Positions 10,903-20,146 of a stretch of DNA of 64,000 bases are shown piece after piece (within the stretch, counting starts at the first letter, position 1; every line of letters begins with the position of its first letter). The notes below the pieces were generated by a model, which was given only the letters and a program-made list of their open reading frames with translations, did not search any database and was not told where the DNA came from. The stretch comes from Variovorax sp. PBL-E5. GTDB lineage: Bacteria; Pseudomonadota; Gammaproteobacteria; Burkholderiales; Burkholderiaceae_C. The position numbers and the translations under genes were made by a program. Location of the stretch: contig NZ_LR594671.1 of the NCBI RefSeq assembly GCF_901827185.1, forward strand, positions 3,534,001 to 3,598,000. The letters are read 5' to 3'.

Positions 10903-10926
10903 GGAAGGTCTCCTCAATGGGCTTTC

Positions 10927-10995
10927 AGCTTAGCGATGCGGGTGCGCGCGATAAATCACCCGGGGCCGAACAAACTGTTCGGATCGCTGGACAAT
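10927..10995. promoter_or_regulatory. Promoter-operator block, copy 1 (VanA-like / LysR intergenic region)
   Basis: This 69-base block matches the block at 17551-17619 at 59 of 69 positions. It contains a perfect inverted repeat, CCGAACAAACTGTTCGG at 10966-10982 (7-base arms, 3-base centre). Read leftward, towards the oxygenase gene, it also has TTTATC (10955-10950) and TAAGCT (10932-10927) separated by exactly 17 bases, a weak sigma-70-like -35/-10 pair. All ten mismatches fall outside the palindrome and the two hexamers. The palindrome ends 19 bases before the lysR ATG and starts 63 bases from the oxygenase ATG. I infer it is the binding site of the LysR protein at 11002-11892. Confidence 0.75.
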
Positions 10996-11001
10996 GACGC
11001 C

Positions 11002-11892
11002 ATGAACTGGGATGACTACGACGTGTTCTGCCACGTCATCGAACACGGCGGCTTCTCGGCCGCGGCACGCGCGATGGACCGCCCCAAGTCGACCGTGAGC
11101 GCATCGATCGGCCGGCTGGAGACCGAACTGGGCACGCGCCTGCTCGAGCGCACCACGCGCCAGGTGCGCCTCACCGAGCCCGGCGAGACGCTCTACCAGA
11201 GCATCGGCGTGCTCTTCACCGGCCTGCGCGAGGCCCGCACCGACGCGCTGGCCCAGGGCGAGGTGGTGGCCGGCACGCTGCGCATCGCGACGCCCTACGA
11301 GTTCGGCGCCCATCACATCGGCCCGGTCGCCTGCAGCCTGATGGCGCGCTATCCGCAGCTCAAGGTCCGCATCGATGTCGAGCACCACGCGGTCAATCCG
11401 CTGGAGCACCGCTACGACATTGCGTTCGCGATGCTCGACGCCGGGCTGCCGGCATCGAGCGTGGTGCAGCGGCGCATGTTCACGCTCGAACGCGGCGTGT
11501 TCGCTTCGCCCGAATTGCTGCAGCGCCTGGGCGAGCCCGTGCTGCCGCAGGATCTGAGTTCGCTGCCGCTCCTGTGCGGCTCGGCCGACACCAAGTGGAC
11601 CTTCACCGCCGCCGACGGCACCAGCGAGGCCGTGCCGACGCCGACCTCGCGCCTCAACAGCGGCAACGCCGACGTGCGGCTGCAGGCGGCCATCGCGGGG
11701 CTCGGGGTGGCGCGCATCACCGCGACCTTCTGCGAACAGGCGGTGCGGGCGGGCAAGCTGCGGCGGCTGCTGACCAACTACACCTGTGCGCCGCTGCGGG
11801 TCTATGCGTTGCTGCCGGGAAAGCGGCTGATGCCGGCGAAGGTGCGGATGTTCCTGGATGCGCTGGGCGAGCAGGCCGGGATCGAGATCTGA
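11002..11892 (+). CDS. LysR-family transcriptional regulator (CrgA-like)
   Basis: The 296-residue protein has an N-terminal winged helix-turn-helix (HGGFSAAARAMDRPKSTVSA then IGRLETELGTRLLERTTR) and a C-terminal substrate-binding-like effector domain (GTLRIATPYEFGAHHIGP onward). It is divergent from the VanA-like oxygenase and convergent with the ABC binding-protein gene that ends the leftward liv operon. The duplicated palindrome lies in its own upstream region and in front of the aldolase that heads that operon, so it is the best candidate for regulating both. The ligand is probably the imported compound or a metabolite of it. Confidence 0.93.
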   Translation: MNWDDYDVFCHVIEHGGFSAAARAMDRPKSTVSASIGRLETELGTRLLERTTRQVRLTEPGETLYQSIGVLFTGLREARTDALAQGEVVAGTLRIATPYEFGAHHIGPVACSLMARYPQLKVRIDVEHHAVNPLEHRYDIAFAMLDAGLPASSVVQRRMFTLERGVFASPELLQRLGEPVLPQDLSSLPLLCGSADTKWTFTAADGTSEAVPTPTSRLNSGNADVRLQAAIAGLGVARITATFCEQAVRAGKLRRLLTNYTCAPLRVYALLPGKRLMPAKVRMFLDALGEQAGIEI

Positions 11893-11932
11893 GGCTTTGC
11901 GCCCTCTCCCGGAAAGAAAAAAGAAAGCCCTT

Positions 11933-13081
11933 CTACTTCTGCAACTTCCAGGCGCCGTCCACGATCCGCACCAGCACCTGCGACCGCTGATCCGATCCGT
12001 TGTGATTGGTCTCGCTCATGCTGAACACAGCCTCGGGCGTGACCACCTCCTTCATCGATTCCAGCGCATCGCGCAGCGCCGTCCGAAACTCCACCGTCCC
12101 GGGCTTGGCCTTCTTCAGCGCCTGCGGCACCGCGGCTTCGAGCCACATCACGGCCGTCCATGCCGAAGCACCGAAGAGCGAACGCGAGCCGGCGCCGTTC
12201 GCTGCCTCGTAGCGCTTGACGTAGTCGAGCGCGGGCTTCTTCAGCACCGACGAATCCGGCAGCTGCTCGGCCACCAGCACCGGCCCGACCGTCATGTAGC
12301 CGCCCTCCACGCCCTTGCCGCCGACACGCAGGAACTCCGCGTTGGCCACGCCTTGCGTCTGATAGATCGGCCCCTTGAAGCCGCGCTTGGACAATTCGAT
12401 CGGCGGCAGCGCGCCCGGCGTGCCCGAGCTCATCACGTACACCGCATCGGGCTGCGCCGACAGCAGGCGCAGCGTCTGCGAGGTGACCGAGGTGTCGGTC
12501 TGGTTGTAGCGCTCGACGGCCACCACCTGAATGCCCTTGGCCGGTGCCATCTTCTCCAGCGTCTTGGTGTAGCCCTCGCCGAAGCTGGTGGCCAGCGCGA
12601 TCACGCCGACCTTCTTCACGCCCTGCGCCACCATGTGATCGAGCGCGAGGCTGACCGCGATCGATTCGGGCGGTGCCATGCGGAAGGCCCAGCGGCGCGG
12701 ACCGTCCGGCGGGTCGATGATGGCGCCGCCGCCGGCCAGCGAGATCATCGGCGTCCTGGCCTGCGCTGCAATGTCGAGTGCCGACAGCGAGGTCGGCGTG
12801 AGCGAGGGGCCGACGATCACGTCGACCTTGTTCTCCGATGTCAGCTTGGTCGCGTTCTTGGCCGCGGTCGTGGTGTCGGATTCGTCGTTGAGGATCGTGA
12901 CGTTGAGCTTCTGCCCCGCGATCTCGGTGGGCCAGAGCCTGGTGGTGTTGGCCTCCGGAATGCCGAGCGTCGCGCCGGGGCCGGTGGTCGAGACCATCAC
13001 GCCGACGTTGATGTCGGCGTGCGCGGCGAGCGCGAAGGCCATCGCGGCCGCGAGGGCTGCCAGCTTGGGGATCGATGTCAT
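11933..13081 (-). CDS. ABC transporter periplasmic binding protein, branched-chain amino acid (LivK) type
   Basis: The 382-residue protein has a Sec signal (MTSIPKLAALAAAMAFALAA, cleavage near AHA-DI) and a type I periplasmic binding fold: VGVMVSTTGPGATLGIPEAN at the mature N-terminus, IVGPSLTPTSLSALDIA, and the hinge region VKKVGVIALATSFGEGY. Liv-type receptors of this kind in environmental Burkholderiales often bind aromatic acids or amides rather than leucine, so the name gives the fold and not the ligand. It is the last gene of the leftward operon 17479-11933, 59 bases after the LivF-type ATPase gene, and meets the lysR gene tail to tail. Confidence 0.93.
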   Translation of the reverse strand: MTSIPKLAALAAAMAFALAAHADINVGVMVSTTGPGATLGIPEANTTRLWPTEIAGQKLNVTILNDESDTTTAAKNATKLTSENKVDVIVGPSLTPTSLSALDIAAQARTPMISLAGGGAIIDPPDGPRRWAFRMAPPESIAVSLALDHMVAQGVKKVGVIALATSFGEGYTKTLEKMAPAKGIQVVAVERYNQTDTSVTSQTLRLLSAQPDAVYVMSSGTPGALPPIELSKRGFKGPIYQTQGVANAEFLRVGGKGVEGGYMTVGPVLVAEQLPDSSVLKKPALDYVKRYEAANGAGSRSLFGASAWTAVMWLEAAVPQALKKAKPGTVEFRTALRDALESMKEVVTPEAVFSMSETNHNGSDQRSQVLVRIVDGAWKLQK

Positions 13082-13140
13082 GGTGATGTCTCCTTTTGGA
13101 TTGAAACGCGGGGAAAAACTGGGGTCTGAGACGATGGCGT

Positions 13141-13890
13141 TCAACGCGCCGCCACGGTGCCGAGGTAGGTCTCGACCACGCGCGGATCGCCGGCCAGCTC
13201 GGCGGCCGGCCCTTCGAGCACGATCTCGCCCATCTCGAGCACATAGCCGTAGTCGGCGACCGCGAGCGCGGCGCGTGCGTTCTGCTCGACCAGCAGCAGC
13301 GTGACGCCGGTGGCGCGCAGGCTGTCGATGGTGCGGAACATCTCCTGCACCACCAGCGGCGCGAGGCCGAGGCTGGGTTCGTCGAGCATCAGCAGCGCGG
13401 GCTCCGACATCAGCGCGCGGCCGAGCGCGAGCATCTGCCGCTCGCCGCCCGACAGCGTGCCGGCGAGCTGCACGCGGCGCTCCTTGAGGCGCGGGAACAG
13501 CGCGTAGACCTTGTCGAGCGCCTCGTCCATTCCGGCGCGGCCCTGATGCCGCTGCCGCCATGCGCCCAGGCGCAGGTTGTCTTCCACCGGCATGCTGCCG
13601 AACAGCGCGCGCGTCTCGGGCACCAGCGCGATGCCGCGCATCACGCGTTCTTCGAGCGGCAGCTCGCCGATCGGCTCACCGTCGTGGCGCACCTCGCCGC
13701 GCATCGGCACCACGCCCATCAGCGCCTTCAGCAGCGTCGACTTGCCCGCGCCGTTGGGGCCGATGACGGTGACCACGCGTCCCGCATCGGCGCGCAGGTC
13801 GAGGCCGTGCAGCACTTCGGCGCGGCCGTAGCCGGCGTGCAGGTCGCTGACCCGGAGCATCTCGCGAGAGGTGTCTGTCGTCATGCTCAT
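13141..13890 (-). CDS. ABC transporter ATP-binding protein, LivF type
   Basis: The 249-residue ATPase has Walker [10 protein letters not shown], the ABC signature LSGGERQ, Walker B LLMLDEPS and the switch histidine region replaced by LLVEQNA, as in LivF. It powers the importer together with the ATPase domain of the fused protein at 13890-15650. The ATG at 13890 overlaps the stop of the fused gene (ATGA); a second ATG two codons later (13884) is possible. Position and sequence place it as the second of the two nucleotide-binding subunits of the Liv complex. Confidence 0.95.
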   Translation of the reverse strand: MSMTTDTSREMLRVSDLHAGYGRAEVLHGLDLRADAGRVVTVIGPNGAGKSTLLKALMGVVPMRGEVRHDGEPIGELPLEERVMRGIALVPETRALFGSMPVEDNLRLGAWRQRHQGRAGMDEALDKVYALFPRLKERRVQLAGTLSGGERQMLALGRALMSEPALLMLDEPSLGLAPLVVQEMFRTIDSLRATGVTLLLVEQNARAALAVADYGYVLEMGEIVLEGPAAELAGDPRVVETYLGTVAAR

Positions 13891-15650
13891 CAAGTGCCCA
13901 GGTAGGCCGTGCGAACGGCGGGGTCGGCCTGCACCTCCGCCGGCGTGCCTTCGGTCAGCTTGGTGCCGAACTCCATCACCACGATGCGGTCGGTCACGTC
14001 CATCACGAGGTCCATGTCGTGTTCGACCAGCAGGATGCTCAGCCCCTCGCTGCGCAATTGCCGCAGCACATCGGCCAGTGCCCGCTTCTCCTTGTGGCGC
14101 AGGCCGGCCGCGGGTTCGTCGAGCAGCAGCAGGATCGGGTCGGCGCACAACGCGCGCGCGATCTCCATCAGCCGCTGCTGGCCCATCGCGAGATTGCCGG
14201 CCTGCTCGTGCATGCAGTCGGCGATGCCGATGCGGCGCAGTTGCAGCTCGGCCTCGCGGAAGAGGCGACGTTCCTCCGCGCGGTCCAGCCGCAGCATCGC
14301 GCCGAGCGGGCCCGCATGGCCGCGCAGGTGAGCGCCGAGCGCCACGTTTTCGAGCACCGTCATGCCGGGCAGCATCTTCACGTGCTGGAAGGTGCGCGCC
14401 ACGCCGCGCCGCGCGATCTCGCGCGACGGCAGGCCGCGGATCGGCGCACCGCACAGGCTGATCTCGCCGGAGCTCAGCCGCAGCACGCCGGTCAGCAGGT
14501 TGAAGGTGGTGGACTTGCCGGCGCCGTTGGGGCCGATCAGCCCGAGGATCTCGCCGGCGCGCACCTGCAGGCTGACGTCGTTGACGGCCACCAGCCCGCC
14601 GAACTGCTTGCGCACGGCGCGCGCATCGAGCACCACCTCGCCGCGTGCCGGCCGCTCGCGCGCGGGCAGCGGCGGCGCATCGGCCCAGTCGCGCCGGCGT
14701 TGCAGGCGCGGCAGCCGCGCCTCGACCGCGGCCCAGAGGCCATCGCGCCCATAGCGCAGCGCCACGACCAGCAACGCGCCGAACAGCACCGTTTCGTAGT
14801 TGTTGGTCACGCCGAGCAGGCGCGGCATCCATTGCTGCAGCTGGTCTTCGAGGATCTTCACCACGGCCGCACCGGCCAGCGCGCCCCACACATGGCCGAC
14901 GCCGCCGACCACCGCCATGAAGAGGTACTCGATACCCATGTTCAGGCCGAAGGGCGACGGGTTGACCGTGCGCTGGAAGTACGCGAACAGCCAGCCCGAC
15001 ACGCTCGCCAGCAGCGCCGCCAGCACGAAGGCCATCACCTTCACGCGGAAGGTGTCGACCCCCATCGCCTCGGCCATGGTGGTGCCGTTGCGCACCGCGC
15101 GCAACGCGCGGCCCATGCGCGAGTCGAGCAGGTGCGTGGTCATCACCGCGGCCACGATCACCAGCGCCCACAGCAGGTAGAAGAAGTGCCTGCGGTTCTC
15201 CAGCGGGAAGCCGAAGATGCTGACCAGGGGCACGCCGGTCAGCCCGTCGAACTTGCCCAGTGCATCCAGGTTGCCGAGCAGGTAGTAAAGACTCAGGCAC
15301 CAGGCGATGGTGGCGAGCGGCAGGTAATGGCCCGACATGCGCAGCGTCACCCAGCCGAGAATCAGCGCACCCACTGCGGTCACCGCGAGGCCTGCTGCCA
15401 GCGTGAGCCACGGCGACAGGCCGTACTTGAGTGCGAGATACGCCGCCGTATAGGCACCGAGACCGACAAAGGCCGACTGGCCGAACGAGATCAGCCCGGC
15501 CACGCCCGTGAGCAGCACGAGCCCGATCGCGACCAGCGTGTAGAGGCCGATGTAGTTGGCCTGCGTGATCCAGAACTCGGGCACGGGCAATTGCGGCAAG
15601 AGTGCCAGCGCGAGCACGAACAGCAGGAGGACGACGCGACGCAAGGTCAT
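13890..15650 (-). CDS. Fused ABC permease and ATP-binding protein (LivM-LivG fusion)
   Basis: The 586-residue protein joins two subunits normally encoded separately. Residues 1-305 are a LivM permease with about eight membrane segments ([20 protein letters not shown] is the family signature). After a charged, Pro/Arg-rich linker (about 313-337), residues 338-586 form a LivG ATPase with Walker [10 protein letters not shown] (373-381), signature [10 protein letters not shown] and Walker B LLLLDEPA. No stop or frameshift separates the parts. Such fusions are known in this transporter family. It overlaps the livH-type gene upstream by four bases and the livF-type gene downstream by one. Confidence 0.94.
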
Positions 15651-16687
15651 TCCTCCTCCTCGTCCGGCCCATGCTTGAAGCTGCGCCACAGCAGCACCGG
15701 CAGGATCAGCGTGAACACGATCACTTCCTTGAAGGAGCTGGCCCAGAAGGAGCCGAAGGATTCCAGCAGGCCGACGAAGAGCGCACCGAGCGCGGCGCCC
15801 GGATAGCTCGCGAGGCCGCCGAAGATCGCGGCGACGAAGCCCTTCAGGCCGATCAGGAAGCCGGTGTCGTAGGCCATCGTGGTGGTCGGTGCGATCAGCA
15901 GGCCGGCCAGCGCGCCGATGAAGGCGGCGAGCGTGAAGCTCAGCCGGCCGGCACCGACCGTCGAGATGCCCATCAGCCGCGCGCCCAGCCGGTTGACGGC
16001 CGTCGCGCGCAGCGCCTTGCCGCGCAAGGTGCGCTCGAAGAAGAGCCAGAGACCGACCATCAGCGCGATCGAGACCATGAAGATGATCACCGCCTGCCCC
16101 GACAGCAGCACGGCGCCGAAGCGAAAGTCCGTGTCCCAGAAGCTCGGTGCGCGAAAGCCCTCGGCGCCGAAGAAGCCGAGGCCGAGCCCGGTCATCGCGA
16201 AGTGCACGCCGACCGAGACGATCAGCAGCACCAGCACGCTCGCGTCGGCGACCTTCTCGTAGGCCACGCGGTACAGCAGCGGCCCGAGCGGCGTGACGAT
16301 GGCCAGCGTCAGCAGGCTCTGCAGCATCAGCGGCATCTGCTGCGCCGCGGCCCAGAGGCTGATCAGCACCACCGGCAGCGGCACCGCGAGCGGCTGGAGG
16401 AAAGCGCTGGCCACGCGGGCCGCGCTGCGGCGATGGCGCAGCGCGTCGACGCCGTCGAGCGCCGACACCCCGAGCGCCAGCGCCAGCAGCAGCCAGACCG
16501 TGCCCGGCACGCGGCCGAGCTGCAGCATGGCGAGCGTCAGTGCACCGTAGGTGGCGAACTCGCCCTGCGGCACCAGGATCACGCGCGTGACCGCGAACAC
16601 CAGCACGATGGCCAGCGCGAGAAGTGCATAGATCGCGCCGTTGCTGCTGCCGTCGAGCAGCAGGATGCCGGCGATGGACAGGTCCAT
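15647..16687 (-). CDS. ABC transporter permease, LivH type
   Basis: The 346-residue membrane protein is the second permease of the Liv complex. It has about eight hydrophobic segments, the N-terminal [19 protein letters not shown] typical of LivH, and [20 protein letters not shown] towards the C-terminus. It ends in an acidic tail (GPDEEEE). It is somewhat longer than E. coli LivH (308) because of an insertion around residues 75-100 ([20 protein letters not shown]). Its gene overlaps the fused LivM-LivG gene by four bases and follows the class II aldolase gene by 12 bases, so all belong to one transcript. Confidence 0.93.
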
Positions 16688-16699
16688 GGGCCGGCCGCG

Positions 16700-17479
16700 T
16701 CAGACCAGCGAGGCCGCGTCGATGCGGCCGCGCCGCAGGACGCTGGTGAACAGCATGCGTTCCAGCGCCTCCTTCGGCTCGAAGGCGCGGGCGTCGCGCG
16801 CGCAGGCGACGCGCACCTCGTCGGTGAGCGGCACGTTGGGGCCGCGCAGGCTGTCGGCCATCACCTGCACCTCGCAGGCGCGCTGCAGCGTCCACATCCA
16901 GCGGAAGGCATTGAAGACATTGCCGCCGGTGACCAGCATGCCGTGGTTGCGCAGGATCATCACGCGCCTGGCGCCCAGGCTCGCGACCAGGCGCGGGCCT
17001 TCGTCGTCGTGCACGGTGATGCCCTCGAAATCGTGATAGGCCACGTCGCCGAACAGCTCGGCGCCGTAGAAGTCGTCATGCCCCAGGCCCTCGCGCTTGC
17101 ACGCGATCGCCATGCCAGCCGTGGTGTGGGTGTGCATCACGCAATGCGCGTCGGGCCGCGCCGCATGCACGGCGCTGTGGATCACGAAGCCCGCGCGATT
17201 GACATGGTGCGGCGTCGGCTCGAGCGGCACGCCGTCGTGGCCGACCTTGACGAGGTTGCGCGCGCTGACCTCTTCGTAGTTGAGGCCGAAAGGATTGATC
17301 AGGAAGGCGGGCCGGTCGCCGGGCAACCGCACCGTGATGTGATTGAACACCAGCTCGGTCCAACCCAGCTGGTCGAAGACGCGGTAGCACGCCGCGAGCT
17401 CGACGCGCGCCTGCCATTCCTGGGGGTGCATGCCCTCGGGGCACAGCGCCTGGGCCTGGCCCACGATGTCTGTTTGCAT
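16700..17479 (-). CDS. Class II aldolase/adducin family protein heading the liv operon
   Basis: The 259-residue protein has the class II aldolase zinc site: CVMHTHTTAG gives the HxH pair and MILRNHGML the third histidine. The N-terminal half contains TELVFNHITVRLPG, where the family binds the substrate. Proteins of this subfamily act as aldolases, decarboxylases or epimerases of small hydroxy acids. It is the first gene of the leftward operon with the Liv transporter, and its upstream region carries the second copy of the promoter block found before the VanA-like oxygenase. That suggests it works on the same imported compound or a breakdown product. The exact reaction is unknown. Confidence 0.9.
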   Translation of the reverse strand: MQTDIVGQAQALCPEGMHPQEWQARVELAACYRVFDQLGWTELVFNHITVRLPGDRPAFLINPFGLNYEEVSARNLVKVGHDGVPLEPTPHHVNRAGFVIHSAVHAARPDAHCVMHTHTTAGMAIACKREGLGHDDFYGAELFGDVAYHDFEGITVHDDEGPRLVASLGARRVMILRNHGMLVTGGNVFNAFRWMWTLQRACEVQVMADSLRGPNVPLTDEVRVACARDARAFEPKEALERMLFTSVLRRGRIDAASLV

Positions 17480-17550
17480 GAAAGCGAGGTCTCCTCTGAA
17501 CGCGACGGCTCTTGGGCGAAAGTCCCGACCGTCTGTGAAATGCCGGGCCC

Positions 17551-17619
17551 AGCTTAGTCAAGCGGGTGCGTTCGATAAATCACCTGCGGCCGAACAAACT
17601 GTTCGGATTCCTGGCCAAT
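17551..17619. promoter_or_regulatory. Promoter-operator block, copy 2 (aldolase-liv operon / sigma factor intergenic region)
   Basis: This is the second copy of the block at 10927-10995, in the same orientation, with the identical palindrome at 17590-17606. Read leftward it has TTTATC (17579-17574), 17 bases, then TAAGCT (17556-17551), as in copy 1. The palindrome lies 110 bases from the aldolase ATG, leaving a leader of about 65 bases downstream of the predicted start of transcription, longer than in copy 1. It is 53 bases from the sigma-factor ATG on the other side. In both copies the leftward gene is catabolic, which makes the leftward promoter the likely target. Confidence 0.75.
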
Positions 17620-17659: not shown

Positions 17660-18388
17660 ATGGCGAAACAAGCCATGCACAACGCCGCCCCCCAACCCAC
17701 CACCGCCGATCCGGGCAATGCCTCGGACCTCGAACTCGCGCGCCGCGCTGCCGGCGGCGACACGCCGGCCTTCGAGTGCATCATGCGGCGCCACAACCAG
17801 TTGCTGTTCCGCACCGCGCGCAGCATTCTCAAGACCGACGAGGAGACCGAGGACGCGCTGCAGGACGCCTACCTGAGCGCCTGGCGCGCGATCGGCAGCT
17901 TCCGCGAGGACGCGCGGCTTTCGACCTGGCTGGCGCGCATCGTCATCAACGAATCGCTCGGGCGCCTGCGCCGCCGCGGCGCGCAGGTGATCCCGCTCGA
18001 TACCGCCATCGATTCGAGCGGCGAGTCCGCCGAGTCCTCGGTCGCGGACGACCCCGACCGCCAACCGGAGCGACTCGCCATGCGCGAAGAAATTCGCCAG
18101 CTGATGGAGCGCCGCATCGACCGGCTGCCCGACATGTACCGCACCGTGTTCATGCTGCGCGCGGTCCAGGAGATGAGCGTCGCCGAAACCGCCATCGCGC
18201 TGGAATTGCCCGAAGCCACCGTGCGCACCCGCTTCTTCCGCGCCCGCAGCCTGCTGCGCGAAGGCCTGTCGCGCGACTTCGACCTCGCGGTCGGGGACGC
18301 ATTCTCTTTCGACGGCGCGCGCTGCGATCGCATCGTGGCGCGCGTGCTGGCGACGCTTTCCGCCGAGCGGGGATCCCCCCGCCCCTGA
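17660..18388 (+). CDS. RNA polymerase sigma factor, ECF type
   Basis: The 242-residue protein has region 2 (HNQLLFRTARSILKTDEETE then ALQDAYLSAWRAIGSFR) and region 4 (LPDMYRTVFMLRAVQEMSVA then LELPEATVRTRFFRARSLLR), the two domains of extracytoplasmic-function sigma factors. The linker between them (about 115-145) is acidic. It directs RNA polymerase to an unidentified set of stress or envelope promoters. No anti-sigma factor is encoded next to it; the next genes are a ferritin-like protein, a cytochrome c and folE. The ATG at 17660 lacks a clear Shine-Dalgarno sequence; another ATG at 17675 (MHNAAPQ) is possible. Confidence 0.9.
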   Translation: MAKQAMHNAAPQPTTADPGNASDLELARRAAGGDTPAFECIMRRHNQLLFRTARSILKTDEETEDALQDAYLSAWRAIGSFREDARLSTWLARIVINESLGRLRRRGAQVIPLDTAIDSSGESAESSVADDPDRQPERLAMREEIRQLMERRIDRLPDMYRTVFMLRAVQEMSVAETAIALELPEATVRTRFFRARSLLREGLSRDFDLAVGDAFSFDGARCDRIVARVLATLSAERGSPRP

Positions 18389-18420
18389 TACCCCTTATTT
18401 CACCCACGAGGAAAACAACC

Positions 18421-18990
18421 ATGTCCTTCTTTCAGATGCCCACGCCCGTCGCCGCGCGACGCCTGTTCCTCGGCAAGTCCGGGCTCGTGCTGTCGGGCGC
18501 CGCAGTCGCGCTGCTGGCCGGCAACGAGGCGCTGGCGGCCAAGGCCGGCGGCGGCAGCGCCCATGACGTGCAGATTCTCAACACCGCGCTCGGTGCGGAG
18601 CTCGAAGCCATCGCGGCCTACCAGCTCGGCGCCGAAAGCAAGCTGCTCGAAAAGCCGGTGCTCGACCTCGCGGTGACCTTCCAGGGCCACCACAAGGAAC
18701 ATGCCGACCTGCTCGCCAAGACGGTCGCCAAGCTCGGCGGCAAGGCGGTCATCGCAAAGGCCGACTATCACTTCCCGGCCGACCAGCTGAAGTCGCAGGC
18801 CGACGTGCTGCGCTTCGCGGCCAAGCTCGAACAGGGTGCCGTGAGCGCCTACCTGGGCGCCGTGCCGTTGTTCGGCAACCGCGACCTCGCCAAGGCCGCG
18901 GCCAGCATCCTCGGCGACGAAGCCATGCATTGGGCGGTGCTGCGCCAGGCCCTCGGCGAAGCGCCGGTTCCTTCGGCCTTCATGTCGTGA
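18421..18990 (+). CDS. Exported ferritin-like domain protein
   Basis: The 189-residue protein begins with a twin-arginine-like signal (VAARRLFLGKSGLVLSGAAV, then LLAGNEALA), so it is probably exported folded. The mature part is a four-helix bundle of the ferritin-like kind, with candidate iron ligands Glu60 or Glu62, Glu93-His94 (HHKEHAD), Glu137 (KLEQGAV) and Glu167 with His170 (GDEAMHW). This arrangement resembles the Ferritin_2 group. It lies 32 bases after the sigma-factor gene and its stop overlaps the GTG start of the cytochrome c gene. It may handle iron or peroxide in the periplasm; that role is inference. Confidence 0.85.
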   Translation: MSFFQMPTPVAARRLFLGKSGLVLSGAAVALLAGNEALAAKAGGGSAHDVQILNTALGAELEAIAAYQLGAESKLLEKPVLDLAVTFQGHHKEHADLLAKTVAKLGGKAVIAKADYHFPADQLKSQADVLRFAAKLEQGAVSAYLGAVPLFGNRDLAKAAASILGDEAMHWAVLRQALGEAPVPSAFMS

Positions 18991-19397
18991 AGTTGCGTGG
19001 GGTGTTGACGGCCAGCGTGCTGGCCCTGTGCGTCGCTGCGCCCGCGTTTGCACTCGGGCCGGCCGACGCGGTGCGCGGCGAGCAGGTGTATGCGCGCTGC
19101 CAGGCCTGCCATGCGCTGGCCGTCGACCGGGTCGGGCCGCATCACTGCGGCCTGTTCGGACGGCTGGCCGGCAGCGTCCCCGGCTTTGCCTATTCGCCGG
19201 CCATGAAGAACTCGCACATCGTGTGGAACGACAAGACGCTCGACAGATTCCTCGCCAAGCCGCTGGCCATGGTGCCCGGCACGGCGATGACCTACGACGG
19301 CGTGCCGGACCCGCAGGAACGCGCCGACCTGATCGCCTACCTCAAGCATGCCAACGACACGCCGGAATGCGCGGCATCCTCGTCGGCCAAACACTGA
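18987..19397 (+). CDS. Class I cytochrome c, periplasmic
   Basis: The 136-residue protein starts at a GTG overlapping the previous TGA (GTGA); the following KLRGVLTASVLALCVAAPAF is a good Sec signal ending at AFA. The haem-binding CQACH lies at the mature N-terminus, followed by VGPHHCGLFGR, and the distal methionine is likely in MVPGTAMTY. The fold is that of small mitochondrial-type cytochromes c. It carries electrons in the periplasm. Coupling to the ferritin-like gene suggests the cytochrome donates to or accepts from that protein, though this is inference only. Confidence 0.9.
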   Translation: MKLRGVLTASVLALCVAAPAFALGPADAVRGEQVYARCQACHALAVDRVGPHHCGLFGRLAGSVPGFAYSPAMKNSHIVWNDKTLDRFLAKPLAMVPGTAMTYDGVPDPQERADLIAYLKHANDTPECAASSSAKH

Positions 19398-19405
19398 TCG
19401 CTCCC

Positions 19406-20146
19406 ATGCTTCGAACGGCTGATTTCCCCGGCCCTGTCTTTCGCGACGAAGCGCCCGCGACGGCCGCACCGAGCGTGTCGGAGCGCATTCGCGCGCGCCT
19501 GCTGCAGGCCGGCCAGCGCCACCATGCCAACGACAACATCTCGGAATGGATCCGCGAGGGCGAGCTCGACGAACTGCAGGCCGAGGTGCGCGACCGGATG
19601 CAGGCGGTGCTCGACGCGCTCGTGATCGATGCGGCGAACGACCACAACACGAACGGCACGGCCGAGCGTGTGGCGCGCATGTTCGTGACCGAGGTGTTCC
19701 GCGGCCGCTATGTGCCGATGCCGGCGGTCACCGAATTTCCGAACACCTCGCGCCTGAACCAGCTGATGGTGGTCGGCCCGATCTCGGTGCGCAGCGCCTG
19801 CTCGCACCATCTGTGCCCGATCATGGGCAAGGTCTGGATCGGCATCCTGCCCAATGAGCACTCGAACCTGATCGGCCTCTCGAAGCATGCCCGCATCTGC
19901 GACTGGATCCTGAGCCGCCCGCAGATCCAGGAAGAGGCGGTGATGATGCTGGCCGACGAACTGGAGCGCCGCGTGAAGCCCGACGGCCTCGCACTGGTGA
20001 TGCGCTCGGACCACTTCTGCATGCGCTGGCGCGGCGTGAAGGACCCCGAGGCCTCGATGACCAACAGCGTGATGCGCGGCGCCTTCCTGAACGATGCGGC
20101 GCTGCGGCGCGAGTTTCTTTCACTGTTGAGCAGCCGGGACGACTGA
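19406..20146 (+). CDS. folE: GTP cyclohydrolase I
   Basis: FolE opens GTP to 7,8-dihydroneopterin triphosphate, the first step towards folate and other pterins. The 246-residue protein has the zinc ligands in SACSHHLCPIMGKV (Cys and His) and SDHFCMRWRGV (second Cys), and the GLSKHARI segment that binds the triphosphate. It is about 24 residues longer than E. coli FolE, the extra being at the N-terminus. It follows the cytochrome c gene by eight bases. The gene may be transcribed with the sigma factor operon, which would be an unusual setting for folE. Confidence 0.94.
   Translation: MLRTADFPGPVFRDEAPATAAPSVSERIRARLLQAGQRHHANDNISEWIREGELDELQAEVRDRMQAVLDALVIDAANDHNTNGTAERVARMFVTEVFRGRYVPMPAVTEFPNTSRLNQLMVVGPISVRSACSHHLCPIMGKVWIGILPNEHSNLIGLSKHARICDWILSRPQIQEEAVMMLADELERRVKPDGLALVMRSDHFCMRWRGVKDPEASMTNSVMRGAFLNDAALRREFLSLLSSRDD

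Follow-up and report, generated by a model that had tools for sequence, protein, structure and literature searches.

LysR-type regulators of divergent catabolic operons, such as ThnR, CatR and GcvA, are encoded by a gene divergent from its target and act through a repeat near −65 that lies over the promoter of the regulator, with a contact toward the −35 box, as described in passages of two papers (PMC4834489, PMC5002191); in these passages, the first, on the LysR activator ThnR, places the centre of the usual primary site near −65, in overlap with the promoter of the regulator itself, and the second describes inverted repeats in divergent LysR intergenic regions. Here, we have analyzed a stretch of 64,000 nucleotides of Variovorax sp. 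PBL-E5 (contig NZ_LR594671.1, positions 3,534,001 to 3,598,000; the window), in which one promoter-operator block stands twice: between a LysR gene and a VanA-like Rieske oxygenase gene (copy 1), and before an operon of a class II aldolase and a Liv-type importer (copy 2). The divergent regulator gene agrees with the known systems, as would a repeat near −65 and a contact toward −35 if transcription starts where assumed below, whereas the half-sites (TGTYC/GRACA, without a conserved T-N11-A) and a block of 70 bases almost wholly common to two operons set this locus apart. On the basis of the results below, a single LysR-type activator, the product of the gene at 11002–11892, very probably has both blocks as its target promoters.

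The proteins also have described relatives. Like VanAB and the dicamba O-demethylase DdmC, the oxygenase combines Rieske and VanA_C domains and is accompanied by a flavin/2Fe-2S-type reductase; however, DdmC, its nearest solved structure, is only distantly similar (E 2.6e-47), and the oxygenase reaches no NCBIfam cut-off. The aldolase belongs to the class II aldolase/adducin family by its Aldolase_II domain and PRK07044 match, but the family also includes decarboxylases, such as DhbB, which acts on a ring-cleavage product (according to part of PMC6362003).

Two copies of one promoter-operator block

In an ungapped comparison, the two blocks were identical at 60 of 70 bases, which is the same alignment as the 59 of 69 reported in an earlier note on this DNA, extended by one base. 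By comparison, the best 70-base pair in random windows (n=60, first-order) had at most 44 matches (mean 40.8). The ten differences, in copy 1 numbering, are at 10934, 10935, 10937, 10947, 10948, 10961, 10963, 10985, 10986 and 10991. Position by position, and just as had been claimed, all of them lie outside the palindrome CCGAACAAACTGTTCGG (10966–10982 in copy 1, 17590–17606 in copy 2) and outside both hexamers of the leftward TTTATC-N17-TAAGCT promoter, which is indeed present in both blocks. The probability that ten differences would all miss these 29 columns is about 0.003, for columns chosen after the fact. The palindrome had been called perfect, which is true of its 7-base arms, but its 3-base centre (AAC) is asymmetric. 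The promoter boxes and spacing of copy 1 recur unchanged in two other genomes, G473 and G352, and nearly so in locus L013 (genomes and loci of relatives are given G and L numbers).

The search of the whole genome (7,086,410 bases) that the note had proposed found the exact 7+3+7 form at the two blocks only, whereas a sequence of 7.09 Mb with the composition of the window would be expected to contain approximately 0.02 exact matches to CCGAACA-N3-TGTTCGG; thus, the many unrelated copies that would have spoken against a regulon do not occur. The palindrome was present at two places with no mismatch, at 10 with one mismatch and at 78 with up to two mismatches (42 for the reversed pattern), and a block query of 103 bases matched the two blocks and no other place in the genome. 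Among 100 genomes of the genus the block DNA had a match only in the window's own genome, and no match was found in a plasmid collection searched in distant mode. Close relatives of the LysR protein (E up to 1e-70) occurred in 3 of 101 genomes of the genus and those of the oxygenase (E up to 1e-130) in 15 of 399 genomes of the family, the window's genome being counted in both cases, and because so few genomes hold them the locus is rare.

Pfam and NCBIfam scans confirmed the gene context described previously, with copy 1 between the LysR and oxygenase genes and copy 2 before the aldolase and Liv genes. The LysR protein has an N-terminal HTH_1 and a C-terminal LysR_substrate domain, both above the Pfam cut-offs. 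Its gene is divergent from that of the oxygenase, with the operator within the common intergenic region, and is convergent with livK.

Architecture of the predicted operator

To characterize the operator, we used the best 80 of 325 oxygenase relatives from a scan of genome contigs, taken with their flanks; 53 of them had an adjacent divergent LysR gene. The intergenic regions of these 53 pairs have a common footprint, ATTGTYC, 8 bases, GNACA, 3 bases and TGTYC, with boxes resembling −35 and −10 elements after it in most of the loci. Across 54 sites, including that of the window, the first TGTYC (columns 3–7) and ACA (columns 18–20) were each conserved in 49 and the second TGTYC (columns 24–28) in 38. 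The predicted operator is therefore larger than the palindrome originally noticed and is composed of three half-sites, ATTGTCC...GAACA...TGTTC. That palindrome (columns 14–30) overlaps a second inverted repeat, ATTGTCC-N8-GAACAGT (columns 1–22), which is better conserved than the palindrome itself. The claim that the differences spare the binding site holds for the palindrome and the hexamers, but it had missed that the difference at 10991/17615 is inside the conserved ATTGTCC half-site. Assuming a transcription start 7 bases after TAAGCT, the repeat of columns 1–22 would be centred at about −64.5 and the third half-site at about −50. In the whole genome, the footprint was found without mismatch at copy 1 only and with one mismatch at copy 2, all other places having three.

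Between the end of the copy 1 operator and the start codon of LysR there are 6 bases, and LysR would therefore very likely control its own gene. In Ramlibacter-type loci (such as L030, L049 and L064), where we placed the LysR start by alignment to the LysR of the window, the first half-site overlaps the start codon and the third half-site is lost, which suggests tight autoregulation in these loci.

Co-occurrence of operator and LysR gene

A 32-column position weight matrix (PWM) was trained on the 53 relatives with the window genome left out. When applied to the window, it gave 36.1 and 31.5 bits for the two blocks, then 19.0 bits for the copy 1 site read in reverse, followed by 6.7 bits for the next match. 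We then scored the 300 bases before each oxygenase gene (206 in L047), after excluding from the training set any sequence with more than 60% similarity to the one being scored. All 53 loci with an adjacent LysR gene scored at least 9.0, and 24 of the 27 loci without one scored at most 4.0. The other three scored from 24.3 to 35.2: in L026 and L035 the LysR gene is at another position of the locus, and in L047 the contig begins 43 bases ahead of the site. In the examined stretch of L014 there is no LysR gene and no operator, but GATTTACC and a CTAAGCT box are kept. Reading the same loci in reverse as a control gave 17 matches above 9, the highest being 17.3 bits. One more match above the control, in L046 (18.5 bits), is without explanation.

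The operator stands before both operons of the window and is rare elsewhere in its genome, and layouts with two sites were also found in relatives. G473 (L016 is the same contig) has sites without mismatch before its oxygenase gene (C22:4280) and before an aldolase-livH operon (C141:2142) whose aldolase is 83% identical to that of the window. L035 has a site of 28.7 bits before the oxygenase gene and another of 25.1 bits between the LysR and aldolase genes, and L026, which has a similar layout, has sites of 24.3 and, weakly, 13.5 bits. In L021, the second site (27.2 bits) precedes genes for a glutathione S-transferase and a TRAP transporter. Thus, the proposal that one regulon links the oxygenase and the Liv operon gains support from the uniqueness of the two copies, the matrix trained with the window genome left out, the co-occurrence of operator and LysR gene and the recurring two-site layouts.

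With respect to mechanism, a LysR tetramer would bind ATTGTCC-N8-GAACA-N3-TGTTC, with the first inverted repeat near −64 as its main recognition site and the third half-site near −50 as the activator-side contact. Once it has bound an inducer, which is probably either the aromatic acid or one of its products, LysR would activate the leftward TTTATC-N17-TAAGCT promoters, one of which would drive the oxygenase and its reductase and the other the aldolase-livHMGFK operon, for import and later processing.

It should be noted that several observations weigh against a single LysR regulon of this kind. First, at the matrix threshold set beforehand (15 bits), the operator test gave 30 of 53 versus 3 of 27 loci (Fisher p 9e-5, uncorrected for relatedness), and the cut near 9 was read off afterwards; the relatives are not independent, and the effective number of sites is about 9–10. 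Second, two loci that have the LysR-oxygenase site have none before the aldolase: in L013, no site was found at the aldolase-livK operon (best −3.3 bits), which is 2 kb away from the LysR-oxygenase pair, and in G352, whose LysR is 87% identical to that of the window, the 700 bases before the aldolase gene contain none (best −8.0 bits). In L026, the second site scores less than the best match of the control and is assigned by its position only. Third, the half-site ATTGGCC of copy 2 departs from the consensus by a T to G change relative to ATTGTCC in copy 1. Fourth, places with three mismatches to the footprint number 22 in the genome versus 7 in all for the reversed control, and further weak targets are possible given this excess. 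Finally, T-N11-A was not conserved, the best tested column pair in the first repeat having it in 20 of 54 sites and the best outside it in 25 of 54. This motif is a common but not universal feature of LysR operators.

Alternative explanations

The target of copy 2 might be the divergent extracytoplasmic function (ECF) sigma factor gene (start at 17660), either in place of the aldolase operon or to the same extent. There are 40 bases between the operator and the start of this gene, and ECF sigma genes accompanied by redox partners are found repeatedly in the vicinity of this oxygenase. However, the −35 and −10 boxes within the block read leftward, away from this gene, and in L013 and L014, where the sigma unit is kilobases away, no site above 9 bits was found near it. 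We consider this explanation unlikely. It is still less probable that the LysR gene is a bystander and that the blocks are bound by a different regulator, such as a repressor of the TetR or MarR type acting on the short palindrome. A short palindrome of the CCGAACA-N3-TGTTCGG type would suit many dimeric repressors, and the canonical T-N11-A of LysR sites is not conserved; but the operator follows the LysR gene across relatives (in L014, neither of the two was found, whereas both promoter boxes are kept), a site in L035, where LysR is beside the aldolase gene, is found there as well as before the oxygenase, and three half-sites at LysR positions are not a single repressor palindrome. Least probable of all is that copy 2 is a relic of duplication or rearrangement that does not regulate the aldolase-Liv operon, as its altered half-site and a likeness reaching beyond the core (32 of 41 non-core columns) could suggest, since G473 has a site without mismatch in the same place, before its own aldolase, and this pair has only 20 of 41 non-core columns in common, that is, the site was kept while the rest diverged.

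Origin of the second block and a probable exchange of regulators

The likeness of the two blocks also bears on how the second one arose. The differences had been interpreted as just what selection on a binding site and promoter would leave. As stated, this has to be rejected: the 32 of 41 bases common to the window pair outside the conserved columns are the highest value of all pairs compared (20 in G473, 21 in L035 and 15 in L026). Because this identity exceeds what selection on a binding site needs, the second block probably arose by copying of the first, perhaps with later homogenisation of both. Between genomes, the aldolase blocks of the window and G473 have 29 of 41 non-core bases in common, the oxygenase block of G352 has 28 in common with the oxygenase block of the window and 29 with its aldolase block, and the window blocks agree with those of L035 and L026 at 9 to 15. 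The control of two operons of a degradation pathway by one LysR protein is neat but ordinary.

HpaR, of the MarR family, is known to control aromatic catabolism, and an HpaR-family or similar gene is found beside the orthologous aldolase operon of relatives. In L013, L014, L160 (these three probably one lineage) and G352, the operon adjoins a MarR gene that points away from it, and its promoter region is a different one, in which an inverted repeat was seen by eye. The MarR proteins of L013 and G352, which the scan covered, pass the HpaR cut-off, and those of L014 and L160 look alike to them. Besides G352, MarR relatives at 61–70% are present in G364, G291 (the genome of L013) and G198, in the last on a different contig from the aldolase. 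In contrast, the window genome (G000) and G473 have the LysR block and only a 39–40% MarR relative elsewhere. In the six examined aldolase operons with liv or livK, the LysR block and an adjacent MarR gene are mutually exclusive. Thus, a change of regulator between an HpaR-like MarR protein and LysR at the aldolase operon is likely. A tree of 14 aldolases (leaving out L044, L080 and the 31–33% matches in Bradyrhizobium-type loci) gave no direction for this exchange, its eight closest rows being unresolved. We tentatively suggest, as a scenario somewhat short of probable, that the LysR-controlled oxygenase promoter was duplicated whole onto the aldolase-Liv operon, where it took the place of an HpaR-like MarR regulator whose gene relatives still have next to the orthologous operon. 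If true, closely related genomes would present one pathway on either side of a regulator change. This is a possible natural case of rewiring through the copying of a promoter, since two genomes of one genus, G352 and G473, have a MarR-linked and a LysR-linked version of the operon, respectively. A further exchange may concern G352 (L157, 4533–5576), whose oxygenase is only 58–59% identical to that of the window while divergent from the highly similar LysR gene mentioned above, as if exchanged under the same regulator.

Pathway and substrate

Importers vary while the oxygenase and regulator persist: Liv systems are found in the window, G473 and G352, TRAP importers in L015, L017, L018, L021, L026 (by similarity only) and L035, and TctC receptors in L030 and L053. 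In L017 and L018, aldolase and TRAP genes lie downstream of the oxygenase gene in the same orientation, suggesting that these functions are connected; the operon of L018 also contains a LigB-type enzyme of the 4,5-DOPA extradiol dioxygenase family. The substrate is probably an aromatic acid, and the importers, the LigB-type enzyme and the likeness to DdmC fit a pathway in which it would be imported, oxygenated (perhaps O-demethylated) and ring-cleaved. Because the class II aldolase family includes decarboxylases, aldol cleavage is not established, and the aldolase of the window may be a decarboxylase. Hence, the previous suggestion of import, oxygenation and cleavage of one compound stands as a fitting set of genes, but carbon-chain cleavage would not have to be part of it. 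No named substrate was found through protein families, PDB sequences or the literature, and among the papers listed by the literature search, none seemed, judged by titles and abstracts, to describe this cluster. The locus appears to represent a well-marked LysR regulon for an aromatic-acid pathway that recurs with Liv, TRAP or TctC importers in Burkholderiales and Alphaproteobacteria.

Neighbouring genes

The features of the window are listed in Table 1, together with the corresponding sigma factor units of relatives.

Table 1. Positions of the blocks, predicted sites and genes (window numbering unless a locus is named)
Feature	Position	Strand	Remarks
Promoter-operator block, copy 1	10926..10995	-	leftward into oxygenase, just upstream of LysR; PWM 36.1 bits
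Promoter-operator block, copy 2	17550..17619	-	leftward into aldolase-livHMGFK; PWM 31.5 bits
Promoter, copy 1	10927..10955	-	-35 TTTATC 10955-10950, 17-base spacer, -10 TAAGCT 10932-10927
Promoter, copy 2	17551..17579	-	TTTATC-N17-TAAGCT
Predicted LysR operator, copy 1	10968..10995	-	ATTGTCC-N8-GAACA-N3-TGTTC
Predicted LysR operator, copy 2	17592..17619	-	ATTGGCC-N8-GAACA-N3-TGTTC
LysR-type regulator, 296 aa	11002..11892	+	Pfam HTH_1 and LysR_substrate
VanA-like Rieske oxygenase, 357 aa	9829..10902	-	Pfam Rieske and VanA_C
Oxygenase reductase, C-terminal 2Fe-2S domain, 326 aa	8849..9829	-	NCBIfam oxidoreductase and ferredoxin matches, all below cut-offs
Class II aldolase/adducin-family protein (aldolase or decarboxylase), 259 aa	16700..17479	-	Pfam Aldolase_II; NCBIfam PRK07044 above cut-off
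LivH-type permease	15647..16687	-	Pfam BPD_transp_2
LivM-type permease and LivG-type ATPase (approximate start)	13890..15650	-	Pfam domains within open reading frame 13890-16895
LivF-type ATPase (approximate start)	13141..13890	-	Pfam/NCBIfam within open reading frame 13141-15672
LivK-type substrate-binding protein (approximate start)	11933..13066	-	Pfam Peripla_BP_6
ECF sigma factor, PRK11922 family	17660..18388	+	divergent from copy 2; NCBIfam above cut-off
Sigma-ferritin-redox unit, window	17660-19397		
Sigma-ferritin-redox unit, L013	13400-15094		
Sigma-ferritin-redox unit, L161	9607-11291		
Sigma-ferritin-redox unit, L041	7237-8930		

In several lineages, an ECF sigma factor gene (PRK11922 family) near the oxygenase is followed by genes for two further proteins, one with a ferritin fold (Ferritin_2 or DUF4142) and the other a small redox protein, either a cytochrome c or a cupredoxin. 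Matches to the sigma factor were present in 23 of 86 loci, of which two are duplicates and many represent one Bradyrhizobium synteny; the partners were identified by scans in the window, L161 and L041, and by similarity in L013 and L014. In L161, the oxygenase gene is within 64 bases downstream of the cupredoxin gene and has the same orientation, and the stretch examined showed no LysR gene. The vicinity of the cluster also contains a GTP cyclohydrolase I gene (19406–20146), and one that is 80% identical stands beside the MarR gene in G352 (L157, 12929–13657). Finally, a frame of 774 aa at 401–2725 of the window matches the selenide, water dikinase SelD in its C-terminal half.

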